Below, piece by piece: positions 1 to 13,042 of a DNA stretch of 13,381 bases. Every line of letters begins with the position of its first letter. Position 1 is the first letter of the stretch. Where the stretch lies: the NCBI GenBank assembly GCA_023807065.1, contig JAJJLU010004413.1, forward strand, positions 1 to 13,381. Direction: 5' to 3'. Source of the DNA: Isotricha intestinalis. Its lineage: Eukaryota; Ciliophora; Litostomatea; Vestibuliferida; Isotrichidae. The notes under the pieces are model-generated. The model saw only the letters and a program-made list of their open reading frames with translations. It ran no database searches and was not told where the DNA came from. A program made the position numbers and the translations under genes.

Positions 1-1
1 A

Positions 2-193
2 GCAGCAACTAAAGACACAAAATATAAATTAATTGCTAAATCAACTGTTACTTATAAAGGAAATGATAATTTTGGAACAGTTACTGTAGATGGAACTGAA
101 GTAACTGCCACTGAAGATACTTCTTCTCCCACTTCGCCTGAGAATAATTCTTTTTATTTGAAAATCTCTTCATTTTTCACATTTTGTTGTTAA
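2..193 (+). CDS. 3' end of a Ser/Thr-rich, probably cell-surface protein (partial)
   Basis: The frame is open from base 2 of the window to a TAA at 191-193, giving 63 residues of a protein whose 5' end lies outside the window. It is much richer in G and C than the surrounding DNA, with codons such as ccc, tcg and gcc, as expected for real coding sequence. The visible part contains a Gly/Thr/Val-rich stretch (GTVTVDGTEVTATEDT), then a Ser/Thr/Pro segment (TSSPTSPENN), then a short hydrophobic end, FYLKISSFFTFCC. That order resembles the C-terminus of secreted or GPI-anchored protist surface proteins, but the hydrophobic end is short, so anchoring is only an inference. The last 24 bases overlap the 3' end of the small secreted-protein gene on the other strand. 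I do not recognise a named family. Confidence 0.6.
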   Translation, partial: AATKDTKYKLIAKSTVTYKGNDNFGTVTVDGTEVTATEDTSSPTSPENNSFYLKISSFFTFCC

Positions 194-346
194 AACATTT
201 GCTATAGCTTCACATTTTGCTACTACTGCATCTACCCATTGACATGTACTGTCAGATGAACATTCTGAACTACCTTTCCCTGCACACGCATTTAATGCAT
301 TTATTATTAATGAAAAATATAAAATAGTTTGCAAAAAAATTTTCAT
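170..346 (-). CDS. small secreted cysteine-rich protein, 58 residues
   Basis: On the minus strand an ATG at 346-344 opens a 58-codon frame that stops at TGA (172-170). Residues 1-20 (MKIFLQTILYFSLIINALNA) form a textbook signal peptide with a likely cleavage site after ALNA. The mature part has five cysteines, at residues 21, 29, 35, 45 and 56, and a CQWVDAVVAKCEAIANVL core, typical of small disulfide-bonded secreted proteins. It converges with, and overlaps by 24 bases, the plus-strand partial gene. An alternative is that a donor near the end (gtgaaaa) joins to ttctcag and continues the frame antisense to the partial gene; I disfavour this because that continuation looks like an antisense reading. 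Family and function are unknown. Confidence 0.6.
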   Translation of the reverse strand: MKIFLQTILYFSLIINALNACAGKGSSECSSDSTCQWVDAVVAKCEAIANVLTTKCEK

Positions 347-409
347 GTTTTCTTATTTTTCAATTTTTATTTTTTTGATATATATTAGAATATTAATTGT
401 TCGGTTATT

Positions 410-1156
410 GTGGTTTTAATAATATTTATAATATTAATATTTATAGGCATTTTTATTTTTTTAATATTTGGTTATATTTATGTTACATTTTTTTCTGCTA
501 AAAGCAAAGATATATCTAATAAATTTAAAAAGATAAAACAAATTGATGAATATTTATTTAAAAAATACAATAAAATAATTCCATATTGTGAAATTGATTA
601 TTTTTATATAAATCAAATAAGTAAAAGATTACCTTGTGTTTATAAATATAATAATCAATCAACTTCACAATATAATATTTATATTCAGACAATTGAAAAT
701 CATTTAAATGAAATAATTTCAGTTAAAGAAATAGGTTTTGTTTATTTTTTAGATAAATTTATGAAATTTTTTCAATTTGATATTATTAATAAAAATAACA
801 ATTATTTTGATTTACCTAAAGCAGATAACTTTGGAAAAGTTTTTATAAATTTAAACCAAGAAAAGATTAAGTTTGGATTAAGTCCTTTGTCTCAATTTAA
901 TGAATTAAATGCTTATATAAATGAAACTTATAAAGATTTTAATACTTATAATTCAAAATATGAAATTATTGATTCAAATATAAATGATTTAATTAGTTTT
1001 GAATATGAATTAGAAAAAGGTGATTTATTATATGTTCCTTCTTTTTATTTTATTCAAATTAAAAACATTAATAAAAATTTATTAATATATCAATATAAAG
1101 ATAGTAATAAAATACAAGAATGCACTTTTAAATCTTTATTTAGTTATAAACAATAA
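410..1156 (+). CDS. membrane-anchored cupin/JmjC-like protein, start unresolved
   Basis: The frame is open from base 389 to the TAA at 1154-1156. The N-terminus is a hydrophobic segment of about 25 residues (IIFIILIFIGIFIFLIFGYIY), a single membrane anchor. The soluble part that follows ends with GDLLYVPSFYFIQIKN about 35 residues from the C-terminus. This matches the late strand pair of cupin/JmjC-like domains, usually GDxLYIPSxWxHxV. The histidine expected there is missing (YFIQ), so iron-dependent hydroxylase activity is doubtful and the fold may serve another role. All Gln codons are CAA. There is no in-frame ATG between the stop at 386-388 and the hydrophobic segment; position 410 is GTG. 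The true start is probably on an upstream exon, and tatattag at 381-388 is a phase-0 acceptor candidate, but I found no matching donor. Confidence 0.7.
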   Translation: MVLIIFIILIFIGIFIFLIFGYIYVTFFSAKSKDISNKFKKIKQIDEYLFKKYNKIIPYCEIDYFYINQISKRLPCVYKYNNQSTSQYNIYIQTIENHLNEIISVKEIGFVYFLDKFMKFFQFDIINKNNNYFDLPKADNFGKVFINLNQEKIKFGLSPLSQFNELNAYINETYKDFNTYNSKYEIIDSNINDLISFEYELEKGDLLYVPSFYFIQIKNINKNLLIYQYKDSNKIQECTFKSLFSYKQ

Positions 1157-1457
1157 TATTTATATTTTAAAGAGATTTTCACAAGTAATTATTAAATATT
1201 TTAATTAATTATTTTGGTTAAAAAATTAATATTTTTATTAATAAAATGTTAATATATTAAAATACATTGAAAAATTTAATTTAGATGAATTAAAGTACTT
1301 GTTTTTGAGATAATAATCTTATAGAATAAAAATAATAGTTATAATATATTTATAAAAATTATTAATTATATTATAAAAAATTATTATCATTTTCTATTAT
1401 ATATTATATATTCTATAAATGAATATTGGGAAAAATAAAATGTAATTTCATTTTTAG
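1157..1457. other. AT-rich spacer, no gene seen
   Basis: This 301-base stretch is almost pure A and T. It has short palindromic AT runs (for example around 1320-1420), no sustained open frame on either strand, and no regular AG-NNN-GT pattern. I see nothing supportable in it apart from the 3' flank of the upstream gene. Confidence 0.5.
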
Positions 1458-1616
1458 GTAAATTCCAATGATTATAATTCGATTGAGTATATAAAAAAGA
1501 AAAAATGGAATAATAATGAATTTAAAGGAATCAAAAATTTTGTTAAAATAAAAAAATGGTTTTAAACTTATTTATTTAGTTTAAATGATATTATTGACAT
1601 TGATGTGAAAAAATGA
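1458..1616 (+). pseudogene. decayed coding fragment, family unknown
   Basis: One frame reads like protein for about 50 codons (NDYNSIEYIKKKKW, then NEFKGIKNFVKIKKWF). It is broken by a TAA at about 1566 and runs on in the same frame as TYLFSLNDIIDIDVKK to a TGA at 1614-1616. Codon choice resembles the intact genes (gaa, aaa, aat), and the sequence between the stops is not low-complexity. It has no usable start codon. It lies directly upstream of the ARF-like pseudogene, so this may be one decaying segment. I do not recognise the family. It could still be a chance open frame in A-rich DNA. Confidence 0.3.
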
Positions 1617-1638
1617 ATTAATAAAAAGAATATAATCA

Positions 1639-2101
1639 AAATATAGAAAAAGAAAATTATTTGAGAATATCATTTTTTAAAAAGAAATGGGGTTCTTTTT
1701 TGAAAGTAATGAGAATATATTTATTATAATATATAATAAATTAACAAAAGGAGATATAATAAAAACAATTCATACAATAAGATTATTGTTTAAATTTTAA
1801 ATCTAAAGGATTGCATATTCAATTTTTGGAAAGAAATAATCAAAAATAAAATAGAGTTCTTTGGAGAAATTATCAAATTATTTTTGATATAAATTCAAAT
1901 AATAAAAAAACATTTATAAAACTCACTGAACACTTAAGATATATTAAATGCATTATTTTAGTTATATCAAATAAGTAAGATTTAAAAGAGGAAATTAAAT
2001 TTCTAAAAAAAGAAGATAGTTTGTAAAAGAGGTAGATTCTTTTTCTTTGAGAAGATTTGAAAGATGGGTTAAATTGGTTAACTAAGGGTTTAGTGAAATG
2101 A
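1639..2101 (+). pseudogene. ARF-family small GTPase pseudogene
   Basis: Two frames joined by a frameshift near 1795 follow the ARF GTPase order. KLFENIIF then KEM (1654-1689) matches the N-terminal helix and first strand. IIIYNKLTKGDIIKTIHTI (about 1726-1780) matches the ILYKLKLGEIVTTIPTI region around switch I. NRVLWRNY (about 1852-1875) matches the IRPLWRHY of switch II, followed by IIFDINSNN like IFVVDSND. ILVISNK-stop-DL (about 1956-1983) is the NKQD nucleotide-binding motif with the Gln codon CAA changed to TAA. EDLKDGLNWLTKGL (2051-2092) matches the C-terminal helix GDGLYEGLDWLSNQL, ending in TGA at 2099-2101. The P-loop GxxxxGKT is gone, and there are at least five in-frame stops, including a TGA at 2048. 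It is clearly non-functional. ARFs normally control vesicle budding. The 5' limit is approximate. Confidence 0.75.
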
Positions 2102-2505
2102 GTAAATTATTTAAATTTTTATTTTTTTATTATTTAAAATGAATTTTTGTTTTTTTTTCCTACACTAATATGAACAATTATTGAATTTGAATATGTATTG
2201 ATTGAAGATAATATGATTTTAAATAAGAAAATTTTCTTTTATTTTTTCTTCAACATTTAAATTTAATTTTCATTGGAAATTAAAATATAAAATATCAAAA
2301 ATATTTTTGAGTGAAAATTTAAAATGTAAATTAGTTTAAATTATCAATTAAACATGTTAAATCTTACTTAAAATTAAAAATATATTTATCTTAAATGTGA
2401 TAGAAAATTTTATTTAATCTTATATTAAAAAATGAGTATTTCTTTTTTATTGATTTTTTTTAACTAATATATAAAATTTACCAACTAAATTAAATAAAAT
2501 AGAAA
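2102..2505. other. AT-rich intergenic region upstream of the multi-pass protein
   Basis: About 400 bases of nearly pure A/T lie between the ARF-like pseudogene and the ATG at 2506. Stops are dense in all frames, and there is no recognisable RNA gene or spliced-array pattern. It presumably holds the promoter of the downstream gene, but I see no element I can name. Confidence 0.5.
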
Positions 2506-3669
2506 ATGTCATTAATTTCTTTAGGTTCAAGAATATCAAATAAAATATTCCTACCTATATTATGTTCAATATCTTTCAATATATTTTATTTTTTTCCTTA
2601 TCAAAAAACTGATTTTAAATATCAATTATTTATTATTATTCCTTTTTCTCAATTATTTCTTGGAATAATAAATATTATACGTATCAAAAGAAGTAAAAAG
2701 GTGTTATTTAAAAAAAATAGGAAGTATAAAAATCAAACAAAATTAAAAAATTGGAAAAAAATTATGTTCCTTTCTTTAATTATTTCTATTCTTTCTTTAA
2801 TAACTCTTTTATTTGATATTTTCTTTAACGAAATAATATGTGAAAAAGATAATTATTATTTTCAAGATTATATTGATTATGGATATTTAGGAATTATTAT
2901 ATTAACATTTATCTATTATATAAGGGGAAACAAACTATTAGGAACACATCAAAAGATATCAATTATTTTATCTATTATAATATTAATAATTCAAAATATA
3001 ATTTGTTATTTAAATTATAATTCATTTGAATTTTCAAAATCATTAAATTTATTGATTTTAATTTCTTTAAAATCAATCAAAGAATTTTTAATTAATTACC
3101 AAATGATAACATTAAATCTTTCTCAATATGCTCTTCTTTTTATTAATGGAATATTACATTTAATATATTTTCTTATTTTAACAGTAATATTATTAATCAT
3201 TGATTTGCATTTTTTTAATTATTTTTTTGAATATAATAATTATCTAAAAGATATCCCTTTAATTATAATTTCAGTAATCCTTTATTCCTTATTTTTAGTT
3301 TTTAACATAAATATTAATTATTATATATCTCCAATTAGTTGTATGAGTATTTATATTATTCATTATTTTTTTAATATTATTTCTCTTATATTTTTTTACG
3401 AAAAAGTATTTTTTATGTCTGATAAAATATATATTCTAGTTATTTTTTTATCTATGATTATTGTTATTTTCACTTTAATTCAAAATGAAATAATAGTTTT
3501 AAATTTTTGGGGATTGAATATTGATACAATGGAAAAAATTGATGAAAGAGGAGATTTAGAAGTTTTAGAGAGTAATAAAATAATAAAAGAAAGTTTAATT
3601 TCTTCATTCGATAATTATTCAATTTCAAATAATCCATCTTTAAATGATAGTCAATTAAATTTAAATTAA
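2506..3669 (+). CDS. multi-pass membrane protein, possibly drug/metabolite-transporter-like
   Basis: The gene has a clear ATG start and a TAA stop at 3667-3669, encoding 387 residues in a single exon. I count eight to ten hydrophobic helices, at about residues 10-30, 42-58, 86-108, 124-140, 150-170, 180-195, 205-240, 250-272, 275-300 and 305-330. A Lys/Arg-rich loop (RIKRSKKVLFKKNRKYKNQ) lies after the second. The soluble Ser/Asn-rich C-terminus follows the segment NEIIVLNFWGLNIDTMEKI. The length, the helix count and a charged motif straight after the last helix resemble the ten-helix drug/metabolite transporter superfamily and related protist membrane proteins I have seen described as hypothetical. 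Substrate and location are unknown. Gln is always CAA. There is no sign of micro-introns in this gene, which makes their density in the downstream genes more striking. Confidence 0.75.
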   Translation: MSLISLGSRISNKIFLPILCSISFNIFYFFPYQKTDFKYQLFIIIPFSQLFLGIINIIRIKRSKKVLFKKNRKYKNQTKLKNWKKIMFLSLIISILSLITLLFDIFFNEIICEKDNYYFQDYIDYGYLGIIILTFIYYIRGNKLLGTHQKISIILSIIILIIQNIICYLNYNSFEFSKSLNLLILISLKSIKEFLINYQMITLNLSQYALLFINGILHLIYFLILTVILLIIDLHFFNYFFEYNNYLKDIPLIIISVILYSLFLVFNININYYISPISCMSIYIIHYFFNIISLIFFYEKVFFMSDKIYILVIFLSMIIVIFTLIQNEIIVLNFWGLNIDTMEKIDERGDLEVLESNKIIKESLISSFDNYSISNNPSLNDSQLNLN

Positions 3670-3939
3670 TAATTAAAAAAATTATATAATACAAATATAA
3701 ATTGGAATTAAAATTATAATTTTAAACTTTTACTATTTAATAAAAGGAAGATAATAACATTTGACTATATTAAAAAAAGAATTTCCAAAAGATGAATAGT
3801 ATTTTAATTTAATTTGATTATATCTTTATGTTAATTTATACCTCATTCTTTTATGTTTTATGATATTAATTTTTAAATTAACTCTCTAAATTAAAATATA
3901 AAAAGTTTATTTTCTAATTTTTGTACAATTTTTAATTAT

Positions 3940-4079
3940 TTCTTAGATTGTGAGTGGCAGTATATTTTGGTAAAATTTATAATTTTAATATCACATTTTC
4001 ATAAATTATGTATTTAATGAATTTCTTAATTAATTTTATTTTACTATCTATTATTCTAATTATTTTTACAATCTAAGAA
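3940..4079. repeat. inverted repeat, 12-base arms 116 bases apart
   Basis: TTCTTAGATTGT at 3940-3951 is the exact reverse complement of ACAATCTAAGAA at 4068-4079. Similarity continues outward (ATTATT on both sides) with one extra T. The arms hold more G and C than their surroundings, so chance is less likely than for pure A/T repeats. This could be the ends of a small non-autonomous element or a long hairpin in a transcript. No target-site duplication is obvious. Confidence 0.45.
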
Positions 4080-4199
4080 TAATATCCTCAATCTATTTAA
4101 AAACAAATTATTTTACTAATAAAAAAATGACAAATCTTTATTTGCAAAATTATCTTTTACAATAATTTTTTATTTTTAAACCTAAAATATCATTTAAAA

Positions 4200-4220
4200 T
4201 TCTTAAAAAATTTTTAAGAA
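4200..4220. repeat. short perfect palindrome
   Basis: TTCTTAAAAA at 4200-4209 and TTTTTAAGAA at 4211-4220 are perfect reverse complements around a single A. It is A/T-dominated, so chance is plausible in this DNA. No function is implied. Confidence 0.4.
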
Positions 4221-4521
4221 AAAAAATTTAAATTAATTGCTATTTGATTTTGTTTTTATATAAAAAATAAAAATACGAGATTTATTTATAAATAATTGTT
4301 TTAACATAATTATTTTTCAAAAATAATGGAAACATAAGTATTTATAATAGAATAATATTATATCTTTAATAATTTTAAAATTTGAAAGTCAAATTAAATA
4401 AATAAATAAAAATTTTAAAAAAGAAAATCACTATTTTTAAATTTAAAAGTTCAGTTTTATAATATAAAATAAAAATTGAAATGAATAAATCTCAATAAAA
4501 TTTTCAGTTAAATATAATTAA

Positions 4522-6856
4522 ATGGCCACCCAAAATTTAATATGGATAGAACCAAACATTGAGAGTGAAGATTACCAAGAATACGTACAAGAACTTGAAT
4601 CAATTAAAAATAAAAAAACCTTTACAGAAGTTGAAAAAGGAATTGATGAAATTTTCAAAATTAAATTTGAAGATACAATCATTATAATAGGAGGAGAGAT
4701 TATGGATGAATTTTTTCCTGATTTTTCAAATAAAATTGATCAATTACATGTTGTGCCTAAACTAATGATTTTTTCAGGAGAAGAAAAAAAAAAGGAAATT
4801 CTTAAAAATAAGAAAAAATATCAAAGTTATCCATTTTTTAATATAAATTTTGTTTTTGATGATTTTTCAAATGTTAAAAATGAAGTCTTAAAGGATGATG
4901 TTTCAGATTATTTTTTAAATGATTCAAGATTCTCTTTTGAATTTGTAGAAAGTGAGGAACAACTTGCAATTCTTGTGAATTATTATAAAATTATTGTATT
5001 AGCACCTCCACCTCAAGAAAAGATTAGAAAATTTAATCAATTTCTTTATGAAAAATTTAAAACAAAAGTAGTTAGTATTTTTAAATTGTTGAGAAATACT
5101 TTTGTTAATAATATTCCTCCAAAATTATTGATTAAATATTGGTTAAGATTATATTCTATCCCAGATTTTTCAAAATTAATGAATGACAATTTACAAAAAG
5201 GAACTTCAAATGAATTTGGAATTTATTCTCAATTATTATATATTGGATTATATAAAAATTTAATTCAACCTTATATAAATACAAAATTATATAGAGGAGG
5301 AATAATAACGAAAGATGAGTTAAAAAAAATTAAGAGTTTTAAAAAAAGAAAAGATGATTTTCATGGATATACTTGTTATACAAAAATATTTATTTCATTT
5401 ACTACTGAAAAAGATATTGCTTTAGATTTTATAAATCAAAATAAAGATAAACTTAAATTTAATGAAAAATTAGTTCTTTTTGAAATAGAAGAAGGAAATG
5501 AAAAAATGGATAAAGAAAGTGCAACAAATACAAATATTGAAGAATATTCATTAAACCCTGAAAATAAAGAGATTTTATTTTTTCCTTATTCTTGTTTTGA
5601 AATAACAGAAATTTCAAATGATGATGAAGCATATACTAATATTAAATTACAATATTTTGGAAAATATAAGGATCAAGTGCCGGAAGATATTAATGAAATG
5701 ACAAATATTCCAGAAACTCAATTTGTAAAAGACTTTTTATCAAGTCAAGTATGTTCAGAAGAAGGATTAGAAGAATTAGTTGAAGAAAATCCAAAAATTT
5801 TTACATTTGATCATAATAAATATGTAAAAAAAGAAATATCTGAGGAAGAAACTGATTCTGTAGGTATGAATAATTACATATTGCTTTGATTATAAATTAA
5901 TTTAGTATCCTGAAGTAAAATATTTATTGACTGTAGGTAATTTTATTCAACAATAATATGAATTAAGGAAGTATAAAAAAACATTATTAATGAAAGATAA
6001 AGGAAGTAGATATAAATAATTAAAGTTAGGAAGAGAAAAAAATAAAAAGAAGAAAAAAAGAAGTAAATATGATTAAATTTCATCAATTAAAAAGAAAGTA
6101 ATAACTATATATGAATAAATTCAAGAAAGTAATAAATATATCAATATATTTTAGAAAGTATTTAATATATTTAATTAAAGAAAGTTAATATAGATTTGTA
6201 ATAATTTAAGAAAGTTAAAATGAAATTAATATTTTTATAATAGGGAGCAAATATTATTAATTATTTTTTTATAGCCAGTAAATCTTCATAAAAAATTTTA
6301 GTGGGTAAATAGTTAATTAAATCAGAATGTAAATATTATAATTTGATTCAATAGTATGTGATTATATAATAATAATGATAATAGAATGTATAAAGATTAA
6401 AATAAATTAAACAAAGGAAGTAATTATTATTTTAATTAATTATAGTACGTAATATAATTATATTGGTTATTATAGATGGTAAATAAATATTAAAGTGGTT
6501 AATTGTAGATTGTAATAAATAAAAATATAAATATAATAGAAAGTATTTTAAAATTATTAATTATTGCTCGTAAAAAAATATAATAATAAATTAAGATTGT
6601 TTGAAACAATATTTATATTATTCTAGGATGTAAAATCGAATGTTAATTTATAAAAGAGGGTATAATAAACAGAATAATTTTAGAATGTAATATTATGCAA
6701 TTTATAAAATCATTGATTGTAATTATTATTTTTATTTAGAAAAAATATGTATTTATTATTAATATAATTTTAGGATGTAAAATAAATTAATATATTTTAT
6801 AGGAACAAGTAACAAAATTACTACAGAAATCTAAAGAAATATCTAAAAAAAATTAA
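4522..6856 (+). CDS. mono-ADP-ribosyltransferase-like protein, gene 1, with single-codon-exon tail
   Basis: ART-like enzymes transfer ADP-ribose from NAD+ to proteins. Exon 1 (4522-5859, 446 codons) starts at an ATG in an AAATGG context. Residues 1-130 form a receiver- or Rossmann-like region with hydrophobic strands (NLIWIEP, TIIIIGG, KLMIFSG). Residues 185-250 are the helical part of the ART fold (YWLRLYSIPDFSKLMNDNLQ). R258 in LYRGG, S292 in FISFTT and E350 in NKEILFFP are the R-S-E catalytic triad positions; the first Glu of the usual ExE is Asn348 here. Unspliced, the frame stops at 5889. Spliced through the micro-exons (5906-6776) and a last exon (6803-6856, EQVTKLLQKSKEISKKN then TAA), the protein would be about 505 residues with a Lys/Glu-rich tail. 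It is the tandem paralog of the gene at 7817. The substrate is unknown. The ART assignment is firm; the spliced tail is an inference. Confidence 0.8.
5353..5678 (+). repeat. 326-base segment identical to 8651-8976
   Basis: This piece of ART gene 1, from the codons before HGYTCYTK through the catalytic Ser and Glu to KYKDQ, is base-for-base identical to the same part of gene 2, including silent positions. The flanks on both sides are clearly diverged. It points to recent gene conversion or unequal exchange between the two tandem genes. Confidence 0.85.
5860..6802 (+). other. micro-exon array of ART gene 1: 25 single-codon exons plus 9-, 33- and 9-base exons
   Basis: After a 46-base first intron (5860-5905), short coding blocks alternate with introns that are mostly 21-32 bases and run GTAA..TAG or GTAA..AAG. 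The exons are 5906-5914 (YPE), 5968-5970 (E), 6003-6005 (E), 6030-6062 (EEKKIKRRKKE), then 22 exons of exactly three bases (the first at 6095-6097, the last at 6716-6718), then 6740-6748 (KKY), 6774-6776 (D), and the final exon from 6803. All are in phase 0 and none contains a stop. Part of the decoded product reads GPWNYNEYMIKLIDRNIKKY. Exceptions are two acceptors ending TG (before 6567 and 6716), one GC donor (6247), and a 53-base gap at 5915-5967 split by AG|GT. The repeated pattern is visible directly; that it is spliced is inferred. Confidence 0.8.
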
Positions 6857-7659: not shown

Positions 7660-7816
7660 CCAAAAAAAGAATCATAAACCTTATTTGAGAAAAAATGATT
7701 TTGAGGAGAATAATATTAGAAAAAATATTAAAATCAAATTATAAATTCTTCTCAGAAAAAATATAAAAACTTTATTTAGTTTATTTTTTTTTTTATTATT
7801 GAAACATAAAAAAAAG

Positions 7817-10800
7817 ATGAATCTTGAAAATTTAATATGGATTGAACCATTTATTGAAAATGAAGAGTATGATATGTACCTTGAAGATCTTAAATCATTA
7901 TCAATTCCTAATATATTCAAATTTAAAAATACTCAAGAAGGGATTACAAAAATTCTGGATATTAAATTTGAATATTCTCTTATTATAATAAGTGGGAGAA
8001 TTATTGATGATTTTTTTCCAGAATTTTTAAATAAAATAGATGATTTAAATATAATACCTAGAATAATTGTTTTTGCTGAATCAAAAAAAGCATATGAAAT
8101 TCTTGAAAATAAAAAAAAATATAAAAGTTATCCTTTTTTTAAATCCAGATTAGTATTTGATGAATTTTCAGATGTAAAAAATGAAATTTTAAAAGATAAC
8201 ATTTCAGATTATTTTTCAAGTGATAAAAGATTTTCTTTTGAATTAATTAAAACTGAGGAAGAACTTTCAATAATTATTAATTATTATAAATTTATTATTT
8301 TAGCGGATCTTGAACAAGAAGAAATCAGAAATTTCAATAAATTTCTATATGATAAATTTAAATCACATTTTCAAATATATCAATTATTAAAGAATACCTT
8401 TGCATATAATATTCCAAAAAAATTACTTATTCAATACTGGTTGAGATTATATTCCATTTCTGATTTCCAAAATTTTATGAATGACAATTTACAAAAAGGA
8501 ACTTCAAATGAATTTGGAATTTATACTCAATTATTATATATTGGATTGAATAAAAACTTAATTCAACCATATTTAAATAAAAAATTATATAGAGGAGGAA
8601 TAATATCGAAAGATGAGTTAATAAGAATTAAGAGTTTCAAAAAAAAAAAAGATGATTTTCATGGATATACTTGTTATACAAAAATATTTATTTCATTTAC
8701 TACTGAAAAAGATATTGCTTTAGATTTTATAAATCAAAATAAAGATAAACTTAAATTTAATGAAAAATTAGTTCTTTTTGAAATAGAAGAAGGAAATGAA
8801 AAAATGGATAAAGAAAGTGCAACAAATACAAATATTGAAGAATATTCATTAAACCCTGAAAATAAAGAGATTTTATTTTTTCCTTATTCTTGTTTTGAAA
8901 TAACAGAAATTTCAAATGATGATGAAGCATATACTAATATTAAATTACAATATTTTGGAAAATATAAGGATCAAGTACCAGAAGATATTACTAAAATGAA
9001 GAATATTCCAAAAAGTAAATTTGTAAAAGACTTTTTATCAAGTCAAGTATGTTCAGAAGAAGAATTAAAAGAATTAGTTGAAGAAAATCCAAAAATTTTT
9101 ACATTTAAAGTTGAAGAATTTAAACCTAAATTTAAAAAAGAAAAAAATCAAAATATACTAAACATAAGGTAAAAACAATAAATGAAAATATTTGATTAAA
9201 AATAATAATTTTTAGGAATTGAAAAAAGAAGAAGTAAACATTTACAATTAATATAAAAGGAAGTAAATAATATTTAAGAATAGATTGTAACAAATGAAAA
9301 AATTATTTAATAGGAAGTAAAAAATAAATAAAATTTAGGAAGTGAGATAATTTTATTAATGAAAAAAAGATAGTAATATCATAAATTAATTGATGAAGCC
9401 AGTAATAAAATTATAATAATTGATAGATAGTAAAATAACTTTATTAATTGATTATAGCCAGTAATATAATATTTTTAATTATGAAAGGATGTAATATAAT
9501 ATATTTTTTAATATATTCAAAATTAATAGAATGTAATATGAAAAAATTAATTTTAAAGATTGTATAAAAAATATAATTAATTATAGGGAGTAAAAAAAGA
9601 ATAATTATATTAGGAAGTAAAAAAGAATATGATTAATTAAAGATAGTAAACTAATATATTAGATATATAATAGTTAGTAATATAATATCATTATAAATTA
9701 AAGGAAGTAATTCAATTACATTAAATAATGTAGCAAGTAAATCAAATAATTTATTCATAGTTAGTAAGATATTAATTTTTTATTTTGAAGATAGTAAAAT
9801 AATTATTTTAATTGATTATAGGAAGTAAATGAAAAATATTAAAAAGATAGTTAGTAACTTTGCTAAAAGTAATTGATTAATAGGAAGTAATAAAATTATA
9901 TACAAATATAGGAAGTAATTTATTTAAATAAATTAGTTTAGAAAGTAAAAGAATATATTATTTTAAATATTTAGAAAGTAATTAATCAATAACCATAAAT
10001 TGAAGAAAGTAATAGAAAATTATTCACATATTCAAGATTGTTGAATTTTAATTAATAAATTAATAGAAAGTATTATAATATTTAATCTAATTATTAGAAA
10101 GTAATAATTAACTTTATTTATCAAAGGATGTAAAAATAAATATAATTTTTAAAGGAAGTAATCTAATGTTATTTAATCAATAAAAGAAAGTGATATTATT
10201 ATTTTTATTTTTTTAGAAAGTATTTTTCAAATTTAATGCTAAATCAAGAAAGTAAAATATAAATATTTATATTAAAATAGTAAAATAAAAATATTTAAAA
10301 AACTATAGTCTGTAATTTAAAAAAATAAAAAAAAGAAAGTATTCTAAAAGTTAATAAAACTTAGTTAGTAGGAAAACATTTATTAAATATTTTAGGAAGT
10401 ATTATAAAAATATTTAAAAAATAGGAAGTAATATAAATGCTTTATCATTTTGGCCGTAATATTAAAATCTCATTAAATTTAAGATGGTAATAAATAATGA
10501 ATTAAATATAGAAAGTAAGTCAAATATATAATATATACAGAAAGTAAATAAGAAAAAAATAATCAATTATAGAAAGTTAAAAAATCTCTATTAATTACAG
10601 CCAGTAAAATTATTTATAAAATTATAATTAAAATAGATTGTCATAAAATTTTATTAATCATTAAAGAGAGTTATTAAAATAAAATTAATAGACAAAGCAA
10701 GTTATCCAACACATTCATTAATTTTAGTTAGTAATATAATCTTATTAAAAAAATAAAGTTAGTAAAAAAAATAAAATTAATCTAAGGAAGTAATAAAATC

Positions 10801-13042
10801 ATTAATTAAAGGGAGTAAATTGATATGCTAATAAAATAAGTTAGTATTATATATTTTTAATTTTTTTAGTATGTAAAATATTATTAAAAGATTTATAGGA
10901 AGTAATCAAATAATATTTATAATTTCAGGAAGTGATTTAATAAATAAATAATTATAGAAAGTTCTATTCATTATTAAATTCATATAGGAAGTAATTAAAT
11001 TATATATATTAAAGTCAGTAATAAAATTAGGTTTATAAATTATAGAAAGTAATCAAATCATATTAATCAAAGAAAGTAAATGAAAAAAATAAAATAAATT
11101 TTAGGGAGTAATATTATATTTTTATTTTATAAGAAAGTAAATAAAATATTTTATGACTTCTAGAAAGTTAAAAAATAATAATTTTTATTAGTTCGTGAAT
11201 ATATTTTTAATTATTACAAGAAAGTAAAATTTATTTATAATTTTCAAGGAAGTAAAAAAATACAAAGAATTGTTTATAGTTTGTAATCTTAAATATTCAT
11301 AAATTGTTAGTTAGTCAGATAATGATTTAATATTTCAAGAAAGTTATATATATTTTAAAAAAAACTAGCAAGTAAAATCAAAAATGATTTTATTATAGAG
11401 AGTATATATTATAATAAATTTTTAGAAAGTAATATAAAATTTTAATGGATTATAGAAAGTAATAAAAAATTAATAATTTTAGAGGGTAATATTAACTCTA
11501 ATAAATGAATTATAGGAAGTAATAAAAGATTAATATTTTTAGAAAGTAATATTAAAAATTAATGAATTATAGGAAGTAATAAAATATTATTTGAAAATTA
11601 ATAGAAAGTAAAATAATAATATAAATTAATTAATAGGAAGTTTTTAATTATCATTATAATTCATTATAGAAAGTTATAATATAATTTTAATCTTTATATA
11701 GAAAGTATCAATAAAAATAATTTAAGAATGTATAATAGTAATTTAAACTATTGTAGTTAGTAATATAATAAATAAATAAATTTAAGGAAGTAAAAATTCT
11801 TAATTTATGAAAGACCGTATATTAAAAATATCTTATGCTGAAGGAAGTAAAATCTAAAAATTATTATTAAAGATAGTAATCAATTAAATGTGATAATTAT
11901 AGAGGGTAATATACCATAAATAATATTAGTTTGTAAGAAAATAATATTATAATAAATTATAGGATGTAATTTATTTTGATTAATAATTAAAGGAAGTAAT
12001 TGAATAATATTAAACAACTAAAGGAAGTAATAAATCATTTTAAATAAAGGGAGTAAATTAATAATATCAATATATTAAGTTAGTAATATTATATTTTTAA
12101 TTATTTTTAGGTGGTAAATAAATATTAATTAAATTAATAAAAGGGAGTAAATTTTAATATAATTCATATTAGTTAGTAATAAACTTATATTAATATTATA
12201 GAATGTAATAAATAATATTTAAGTATAGAAAGTAATTTTACACATTCATTTAAATAAAGAAAGTAATCAAATATATTAATTAAAGAATGTAATATAATTA
12301 TAATCAATTAAAGGAAGTATTATATAACTTTTTGATAATTTTAGGAAGTAATAAAATAATTTTAATTAATTATAGGATGTGAAAAAATAATATTAATTAA
12401 TTAAAGAAGGTAATATATTATATAAATTTGAAAAAAGGAAGTAATATAATTAAATTAAATAATAAAAAGGAAGTTCTTTATTATTTATAAAATTGAAGAT
12501 GGTAAATAAACTTTAATGATATAAAGAATGTAAAAAAATTATTTTTGAACTTTAGCAAGTAATTTAATATTATTAATGATAGATAGTAAAATAATTTTAA
12601 TTAATTATTAGTTGGTAATAATATTTTATTAATAAATTCAAGGCTGTAAAGGAATTTTATTAATTATAGAAAGTAATATAACATATTTTTTAATTTAGTC
12701 TGTAATATCATAACTTTACAAAAATTAGAAAGTATACTATAAAACATTATAAATATAGAAAGTAAAATTTCATCAAAAATATTATAGAAAGTATTAAAGA
12801 AATAATAAAAATGAATAATAGAGAGTAAATCAATGAAATATTCTTAAAAGAAAGTAAAATAATCTTTATAATAAATAAAGTTAGTAATATAATAATATTA
12901 ATTAATTTTAGTTAGTAATAATGGATTATTTATTAATTATAGGAAGTAAAGAAATATATTAATTAATTGTAGCTAGTAATAATAATATTAATGAAATATA
13001 GTTGGTAATTTAATATTATTGATTTGTTAGAGAGCAAATTAA
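7817..13042 (+). CDS. mono-ADP-ribosyltransferase-like protein, gene 2, tail spread over 126 single-codon exons
   Basis: This is the paralog of the gene at 4522. The ATG at 7817 gives MNLENLIWIEP, aligning with the paralog; a TTG-started extension to 7799 is not supported. Exon 1 (7817-9168, about 450 codons) has the same receiver-like N-terminal region and ART fold. R259 in LYRGG, S293 in FISFTT and E351 in NKEILFFP are the triad positions. Unspliced, translation stops at 9172, where the stop lies inside the GTAA donor. Spliced, an 18-base exon (9216-9233, ELKKEE), 126 three-base exons and a last exon (13031-13042, RAN then TAA) add about 135 residues, giving a protein near 585 residues with a Lys/Glu-rich, coiled-coil-like tail. 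One problem: the exon 1 donor at 9169 falls in phase 2, while the array is in phase 0 (see findings). The ART call is firm, the splicing inferred, and the 3' end probable. Confidence 0.78.
8651..8976 (+). repeat. 326-base segment identical to 5353-5678
   Basis: This is the second copy of the segment shared by the two ART genes. The first differences at the edges are in the codons just before GATGAT (AGA AAA versus AAA AAA) and, after the segment, GTG versus GTA at the Val codon. Upstream halves of the genes differ at many amino-acid positions. Confidence 0.85.
9169..13030 (+). other. giant micro-exon array of ART gene 2: 126 consecutive one-codon exons
   Basis: From 9234 to 13030 the motif AG-NNN-GT recurs about every 30 bases. 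The six-base donor context is mostly GTAATA, GTAAAA or similar, and the acceptor is TAG, AAG or rarely CAG. Introns run from about 21 to 39 bases and have no constant length or sequence. I read 126 triplets, the most common being aaa and gaa, then tta, with rarer ones such as gcc, acc, tct, cca, tat and ttc. None is a stop. Read in order they give protein-like sequence, for example IPIPDNIGEILEQLIELEE near the start and NQILAKSKKKRKLLELL near the end. Both other phases meet stops early. One unit uses a TG acceptor (10451-10452) and one is damaged (10277-10281). The periodic pattern is plain in the sequence; splicing is the best explanation, not shown. Confidence 0.85.
11451..11580 (+). repeat. 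tandem duplication of a two-codon, two-intron unit inside the array
   Basis: The blocks 11451-11510 and 11511-11567 each contain codon, GTAATAAAA..TTTTTAG-type intron, codon, GTAATATTA..ATGAATTATAG-type intron. They match closely in intron sequence as well as layout. A third partial copy begins at 11568. The codons are aaa-agg, then gaa-aaa, then gaa. Most other introns in the array have no close relatives, so this looks like a recent expansion by unequal crossing-over or slippage. Confidence 0.65.

Follow-up and report, generated by a model that had tools for sequence, protein, structure and literature searches.

Arrays of predicted single-codon exons between tiny introns in the genome of Isotricha intestinalis

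How is a gene to be read if its coding sequence appears to be interrupted after every single codon? This question is raised by a contig of Isotricha intestinalis (JAJJLU010004413.1 of assembly GCA_023807065.1; C1849 in our numbering), which over its whole length of 13,381 nucleotides (nt) is the window analyzed here and which belongs to an assembly of 57.3 Mb in 2153 contigs. The window, whose G+C content is 11–25% per 500-base window, contains two paralogous ADP-ribosyltransferase-like (ART-like) genes, and behind each of them lies an array of units of the form AG-NNN-GTAA. We propose that such arrays are real, genome-wide and coding, and that they consist of spliceosomal introns between single-codon exons, which mostly form the tails of ART-like, protease-like and other genes. 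Based on the sequence evidence presented below, we estimate the probability of this reading at about 0.88.

The larger array of the window, located behind ART-like gene 2, comprises the following parts:

9216..9233, plus strand: predicted 18-nt exon GAATTGAAAAAAGAAGAA (ELKKEE), which shares phase 0 with the array (gene parse, junction analysis).
9260..13004, plus strand: array of 127 predicted single-codon exons (AG/GT spacing count, free-length parse, unit decode, shuffles).
13031..13042, plus strand: predicted terminal exon AGA GCA AAT TAA, encoding RAN and a stop (gene parse).

On the plus strand between positions 9173 and 13040, AG and GT are separated by exactly three bases 127 times (108 of these being AG-N3-GTA), the remaining spacer lengths between 0 and 12 occur 0–5 times each, and the minus strand of the same segment contains no AG-N3-GT at all. 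Two of the 127 raw matches are overlap artefacts (9847/9851 and 10512/10516), and decoding unit by unit yields 127 codon units between 9260 and 13004. The window contains 113 copies of AGNNNGTAA, compared to 4.5 ± 2.3, and never more than 11, in 200 dinucleotide-preserving shuffles. When the exon length was left free, 120 of the 124 exons in this array came out at 3 nt. The introns are 21–39 nt long with a median of 27 (126 of the 127 units measured), and their interiors are poor in both AG (27 versus 44 expected) and GT (14 versus 35). The decoded tail is rich in lysine and glutamate and carries no stop in phase 0, compared to 14 stops in each of the other two phases; together with the flanking exons, the predicted tail amounts to 6 + 127 + 3 codons, or 136 residues. 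Spacing counts, decode and shuffles thereby confirm the one-stranded AG-NNN-GTAA array described in the initial annotation, whose figures of 126 three-base exons and about 135 tail residues were close to those obtained here.

The same layout recurs throughout the genome. A pattern of three consecutive units matched the 57-Mb genome 391 + 448 times (839 matches), compared to 12 + 10 (22) for the reversed control, while the same pattern with 4-base exons gave 0 + 0 matches (control 8 + 4). We decoded 34 arrays with a total of 1440 units, comprising a first set of 16 non-redundant arrays, which includes the gene 2 array of the window, and all 18 of 18 arrays of a second set; the near-copies C1318 and C1885b as well as the first array of the window were left out of the stop, codon-usage, CxxC and motif counts. 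Further arrays beyond these are present among the matches listed, and the total is at least 34. A free-length parse, which scores splice sites and intron length only and in which exons were counted between the first and the last adjacent pair of 3-nt exons, assigned 3 nt to 887 of 973 exons in 19 stretches (838 of 915 without two near-copies), a number that rose to 930 when some non-GT donors were allowed. Reversed sequences had no peak at 3 nt (22 exons of 3 nt and 21 of 2 nt). The exons of other lengths were mostly 6, 9, 12, 15 or about 33 nt long, with 19 of the 24 exons of up to 20 nt measuring 6, 9, 12 or 15 nt, and the length of about 33 nt fits two exons around a missed intron.

Where the upstream side was read, the arrays were mostly found behind a long ordinary exon. 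This exon is ART-like in the window and in contigs C1885, C1541, C1318 and C21, and protease-like in C1044, where the match to PF13365 (Trypsin_2, E 2e-5) lies just below the cut-off. The upstream exon of C94 resembles that of C1044 by eye, and those of C1893 and C439 were called protease-like by eye only; a Pfam search with the upstream exons of C94 and C18, the latter being Cys-rich, gave no match. In C1364, the parse predicts an apparently complete small gene, which starts with MSE and continues with one codon per exon. Several arrays with homogeneous introns (C275, C396, C1083 and C1592) lie at or near contig ends, so that their true length may exceed the assembled one. The contigs sampled were all at least 10.5 kb long, and hence the assembly looks size-filtered.

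Several independent counts bear on whether the triplets are codons. Joined together, they are open in one phase per array, which is phase 0 in most cases, whereas the codons are split in C1893, C439, C94, C1592, C570, C589, C1042, two arrays of C2 and two arrays of C1294. Over all 34 arrays (1440 units) in their best phase, 2 stops were counted versus approximately 124 expected. As the choice of phase favors open frames, the controls were also given the best of three phases: the 16 arrays of the first set (902 units) contain 2 stops compared to 83.6 in random triplets (lowest of 2000, 63), and the 18 further arrays (538 units) contain none compared to 40.9 (lowest of 1000, 26). A second phase is open too in several short arrays of this second set. 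Relative to the trinucleotides of the introns, 15 arrays with 799 codons have 2 stops versus 115.7 expected. Shuffling the codon order, which is a weaker stop test, gave 2 observed stops versus 7.9 for the 16 arrays (lowest of 5000, 2) and, for split-codon arrays, 0 versus 0 in C1893 and p values of 0.03, 0.10 and 0.17 in C439, C94 and C2b, respectively.

Codon usage and codon order point in the same direction. For two-codon amino acids, the arrays resemble 32 long reading frames (TAT:TAC 50:0, AAT.92 versus.93, GAT.91 versus.93, GAA.89 versus.92), with the second set being similar. The spacing CxxC occurs 19 times in the first set compared to 3.1 times in shuffled order (maximum of 5000, 12), and 7 times in the second set compared to 1.2 (maximum of 2000, 5). 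The earlier claim that each 3-base exon contributes one amino acid is strongly supported by the scarcity of stops, the choice and the order of codons and the shared motif described below. At the level of sequence, these tests demonstrate that the array triplets behave as codons of genuine proteins in many genes and keep the same phase from one end of an array to the other.

The shared motif, C-x-[YHN]-x-F-[WY]-[KEQ]-G, is zinc-ribbon-like and was found in 8 of the 34 arrays (C281, C18, C1885, C1541, C1008, C1460, C741 and C912), compared to a mean of 0.0005 in codon-order shuffles (maximum of 2000, 1), with the pattern having been written post hoc, after the decodes were seen. Across the 28 pairs of these eight arrays, the identity of codon bases is 0.68 at homologous units and 0.31 at other units (0.62 and 0.35 without the four anchor units), whereas intron interiors agree at 0.61 and 0.58, respectively. 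The same predicted protein motif is spelled by arrays whose introns appear unrelated. Moreover, CPxCG ends the tails of C1541, C1318, C21 and, in one parse, C281, and relaxed splice-site rules complete CTKC in C1885a (with a GTC donor) and CFHCG in C1364 (with a TTG acceptor), a check that was not built into the decode. Pfam searches with eight decoded tails were all sub-threshold, with two pointing to zinc ribbons, one to coiled-coil-type families and the rest being stray or none; a profile of the motif had no match in the PDB.

The spacers, in turn, have the ends of spliceosomal introns. Since AG and GT served to select the units, only the positions beyond these dinucleotides are informative for the consensus: over 789 introns, the donor reads GTAA, with A at.90 for +3 and.83 for +4, and the acceptor is TAG (.67), AAG (.30) or CAG (.03), with GAG rounding to 0. 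The mode of the intron length is 26–27 nt, with 33 nt in some arrays. Not all units have GT and AG ends, and among the non-GT donors of missed units with an AG acceptor, 14 of 25 carry a G at +5 compared to 109 of 950 GT donors (p 2e-7; 14 of 23 versus 85 of 744 without near-copies), as expected if U1 pairing compensates. Introns starting with AT, TT, GA or GC, often then followed by AAGA, were observed inside arrays at loci L062–L069 and at the ART loci L003 and L005–L007. The genome contains Prp8 (domain IV with E 8e-114, within an open frame of 2473 amino acids) and two copies of U6 (108 bits). Ribosomal protein L3 was not found in the genome even though Prp8 and U6 were, either because small contigs are missing or because the gene is too fragmented for a six-frame search. 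Paramecium avoids introns of 3n length; such avoidance was not seen in the arrays, where an in-frame stop is present in 156 of 173 3n introns versus 138 expected (heterogeneous arrays) and in 202 of 203 versus 193 (homogeneous arrays). Collectively, the GT-AG ends, the G at +5, U6 and Prp8 are compatible with an ordinary U2-type spliceosome that would act on each short intron. The initial annotation had held that standard exon or intron definition could not operate at this spacing and that an ordered or specialized machinery would be required, a claim that our analysis does not show.

In the mechanism that we envisage, a tiny U2-type spliceosomal intron (GTAA...TAG/AAG) would follow every codon of the coding region, and each of these short introns would be recognized as a unit by intron definition, including the role of U1. 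The introns would probably be removed singly and in no fixed order. Under such one-at-a-time removal, neighboring sites separated by only 3 nt would not have to be bound at the same time, and, since every exon is 3 nt long, a skipped exon would cost one residue but never the frame, which could make more than 100 splicing events tolerable.

How such arrays might have formed is suggested by comparing their units. Identical introns mostly flank different codons, with some excess of shared codons in C439, C1364 and C1083: the codon is the same in 7 of 82 identical-intron unit pairs in C1616, 0 of 10 in C1893, 9 of 43 in C439, 5 of 15 in C1364 and 11 of 51 in C1083, compared to a baseline of 7–11% for all unit pairs in homogeneous-intron arrays. 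Comparing blocks of five units yielded 13 overlapping pairs, 12 of which come from C1083, whose introns differ by 1–3% and whose codon bases differ by half. Identical introns beside different codons imply that introns were copied or homogenized largely without the codons between them, and for this reason the arrays may have arisen by an introner-like multiplication of introns inside existing coding sequence. Block duplication including the codons was also seen, with LEEEK in C1083 and SWVKDLGDEE repeated in C826. In the arrays of the near-identical genes of C1541 and C1318 (L005/L006), differences affect 8 of 135 exon bases and 5 of 1039 positions of introns and splice sites (p 2e-5), with all differences lying in one tract (units 24–33) that could be a conversion tract; C1885a and C1885b differ at 1 of 72 exon and 8 of 619 intron positions, with no exon excess. 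A broader model, which we consider rather doubtful, is that codons and introns constitute separate layers, in which introns would be inserted or copied in 3-nt steps and homogenized while codons change faster, leading to variable tails and to frame-neutral edits by exon skipping. Faster codon change is supported by the pair C1541 and C1318 but not by the pair C1885a and C1885b.

Several observations weigh against a reading as single-codon exons. One of the two stops in the first set lies inside C94 (the other being at the end of C1364), the leucine and arginine codons differ from those of ordinary genes (TTA.51 versus.75, AGA.51 versus.79), and two of the 127 units of the larger window array lack the AG acceptor (10277 and 10453). 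The branch point shows weak preferences only, between -10 and -6, with no clear motif. A search with the decoded C1364 protein against 5.8 billion predicted proteins returned no candidate (one query), and an uninterrupted copy of the decoded C281 domain was not found in its own genome (one query, no positive control). The remaining points concern the ART-like genes of the window and their junctions to the arrays:

4522-5889, plus strand: ART-like gene 1, an open reading frame (ORF) with predicted exon 1 at 4522..5859 and an in-frame donor GTAGGT at 5860.
5906..5914, plus strand: predicted 9-nt exon TATCCTGAA (YPE), from a frame-aware parse.
5968..6808, plus strand: second array, 29 units by unit decode, shorter and less regular, behind ART-like gene 1 and not mentioned in the initial annotation.
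7799-9172, plus strand: ART-like gene 2, an uninterrupted frame of 451 amino acids and a stop from 7817.

The products of the two genes are 73% identical, and they are named ART-like because their matches to PF01129 (NAD:arginine ADP-ribosyltransferase), which cover profile positions 173–220 of 222, reach 19.2 and 19.4 bits (E 7e-4 for gene 2) and thus stay below the curated cut-off of 22.3; no relatives of these proteins were found in IMG/VR. For the gene 1 array, the unit decode has one stop, TAA at 6064, a unit that is part of a 33-nt exon in the frame-aware parse; several units of this array lack GT or AG, and two parses disagree in its second half. For gene 2, splicing at the good donor, 9169, would end exon 1 in phase 2, out of step with the phase 0 of both the exon at 9216–9233 and the array, and of the in-frame GTs from 9041 on (9047, 9077 and 9110), the nearest, at 9110 (GTTGAA), is a weak donor. 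The initial annotation had assigned the tail to the ART-like protein, which our analysis does not show: as the join is out of frame at the good donor in the assembled sequence, a gene 2 protein carrying the 136-residue tail is unproven. Of the gene parses, the first ones used a low intron penalty and produced false introns in long exons, and the later ones differ in places from these and from each other. The gene 1 array, with its several weak units, may be older or decaying. Near the array start of both genes (5936/5937 and 9168/9169), AG abuts GTAA, which the parse treats as an exon of zero length and which is reminiscent of recursive splicing.

The phase conflict at gene 2 gives rise to the alternative that the window array is not joined to this gene, in which case the transcript would end at the TAA at 9170–9172 and the array would be decaying or a separately expressed tail. 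This scenario concerns the window locus and is compatible with one-codon exons genome-wide. It is in line with exon 1 being open up to this natural stop and with a related metagenome protein, P0001, that likewise stops without a tail, although P0001 is a predicted ORF that would run into the intron there anyway. It has to account, however, for 127 stop-free array codons followed by a predicted terminal exon with a stop, for the in-frame donor at 9110, weak as it is, and for gene 1, which can join its array in frame in the frame-aware parse (exon 1 to 5859, then YPE). We consider the scenario unlikely, while taking it seriously for this locus.

Instead of being spliced from RNA, the spacers could be cut from DNA, as germline internal eliminated sequences (IESs) of a ciliate-like organism that are excised when the expressed genome forms. 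Their extreme A+T content would suit this idea, and the spacer mode of 26–27 nt recalls the length of the short IESs of Paramecium. Yet the GT...AG ends with their U1-like +3 and +4 positions, and the G at +5 in over half of the non-GT donors, speak against it, and by inspection the codons beside the ends vary, with no constant flanking repeat of the direct-repeat or pointer type. Many introns do have TA at +2/+3 and -3/-2, but the acceptor is AAG in 30% of cases, and a cut from one TA to the other would leave surplus nucleotides between the codons. Overall, we regard DNA excision as very improbable. The chance is slimmer still that ribosomes hop over spacers retained in the mRNA (translational bypassing), for although the spacers, as short and A+T-rich inserts between codons, are reminiscent of mitochondrial byps, such hopping is at odds with the GT...AG rule, with arrays whose codons are split by spacers and with the spliceosome parts in the genome, and would require 127 hops per message. 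Finally, the periodicity of about 30 bp and the near-identical spacers of some arrays might suggest non-coding DNA, either a satellite or an array of binding sites, in which the triplet varies; this reading is contradicted by stop avoidance, codon usage, CxxC and the shared motif to the point of being practically dismissed, and a four-unit pattern in IMG/VR identified 36 loci, of which 18 chain to at least 6 units, mostly with constant or nearly constant triplets.

Outside the ART-like genes and their arrays, three further features were observed in the window:

410-1156: frame weakly resembling cupins (PF00190, sub-threshold).
1160-2450: G-rich strand (skew up to 0.5) with no long frame, possibly a decayed gene.
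2506-3669: hydrophobic, membrane-protein-like frame of 387 amino acids with no Pfam match.

If RNA confirms that spliceosomal introns separate single-codon exons, this would to our knowledge be the most finely divided gene layout. It would then set the lower limit of exon definition, with more than 100 consecutive 3-nt exons and spliceosome parts far larger than the exon. Intron definition, the order and fidelity of splicing and the reason why symmetric exons are preferred could all be tested on the arrays as a natural system. They would also offer a direct case for intron multiplication, because the introns were copied largely without codons. Protein regions of this kind would escape standard gene finders.

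Among known systems, the micro-exon genes of schistosomes and the bicycle genes of aphids have exons of about 6–36 nt, approximately 10–20 per gene, separated by ordinary introns. Like those genes, the arrays string together very short coding exons whose length is divisible by three, such that skipping keeps the frame; in contrast, each exon described here is exactly one codon long, as many as 127 of them follow one another between introns of about 27 nt, and the layout occurs in many genes. In the passages retrieved from open-licence PMC papers, preprints not included, isolated 3-nt exons are described but no array of one-codon exons, so that a prior description is possible. These cases include a single 3-nt micro-exon in Drosophila homothorax (PMC7392893), two 3-nt exons in lipS of Dactylellina (PMC5639578) and three microexons in RPS24 (PMC11162997, PMC12686416); judging from these passages, single 3-nt micro-exons share with our arrays the one-codon exon spliced by the ordinary spliceosome and differ in that they number 1–3 per gene and form no array. 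Introns of about 25 bp in Paramecium and Nyctotherus (PMC5014332) and the tiny introns of Stentor (PMC9505925) are comparable in intron length and in the splicing of tiny introns, whereas one-codon exons are not mentioned in the parts of these sources that were available. Lastly, introners are elements that create introns in bulk (PMC9860276), and as far as the corresponding excerpt goes they share with the arrays a multitude of near-identical introns dispersed over coding regions. Near-identical introns did recur at numerous positions in C1616 and C1083, but here the copies are located at every codon of one gene region and in a single phase.

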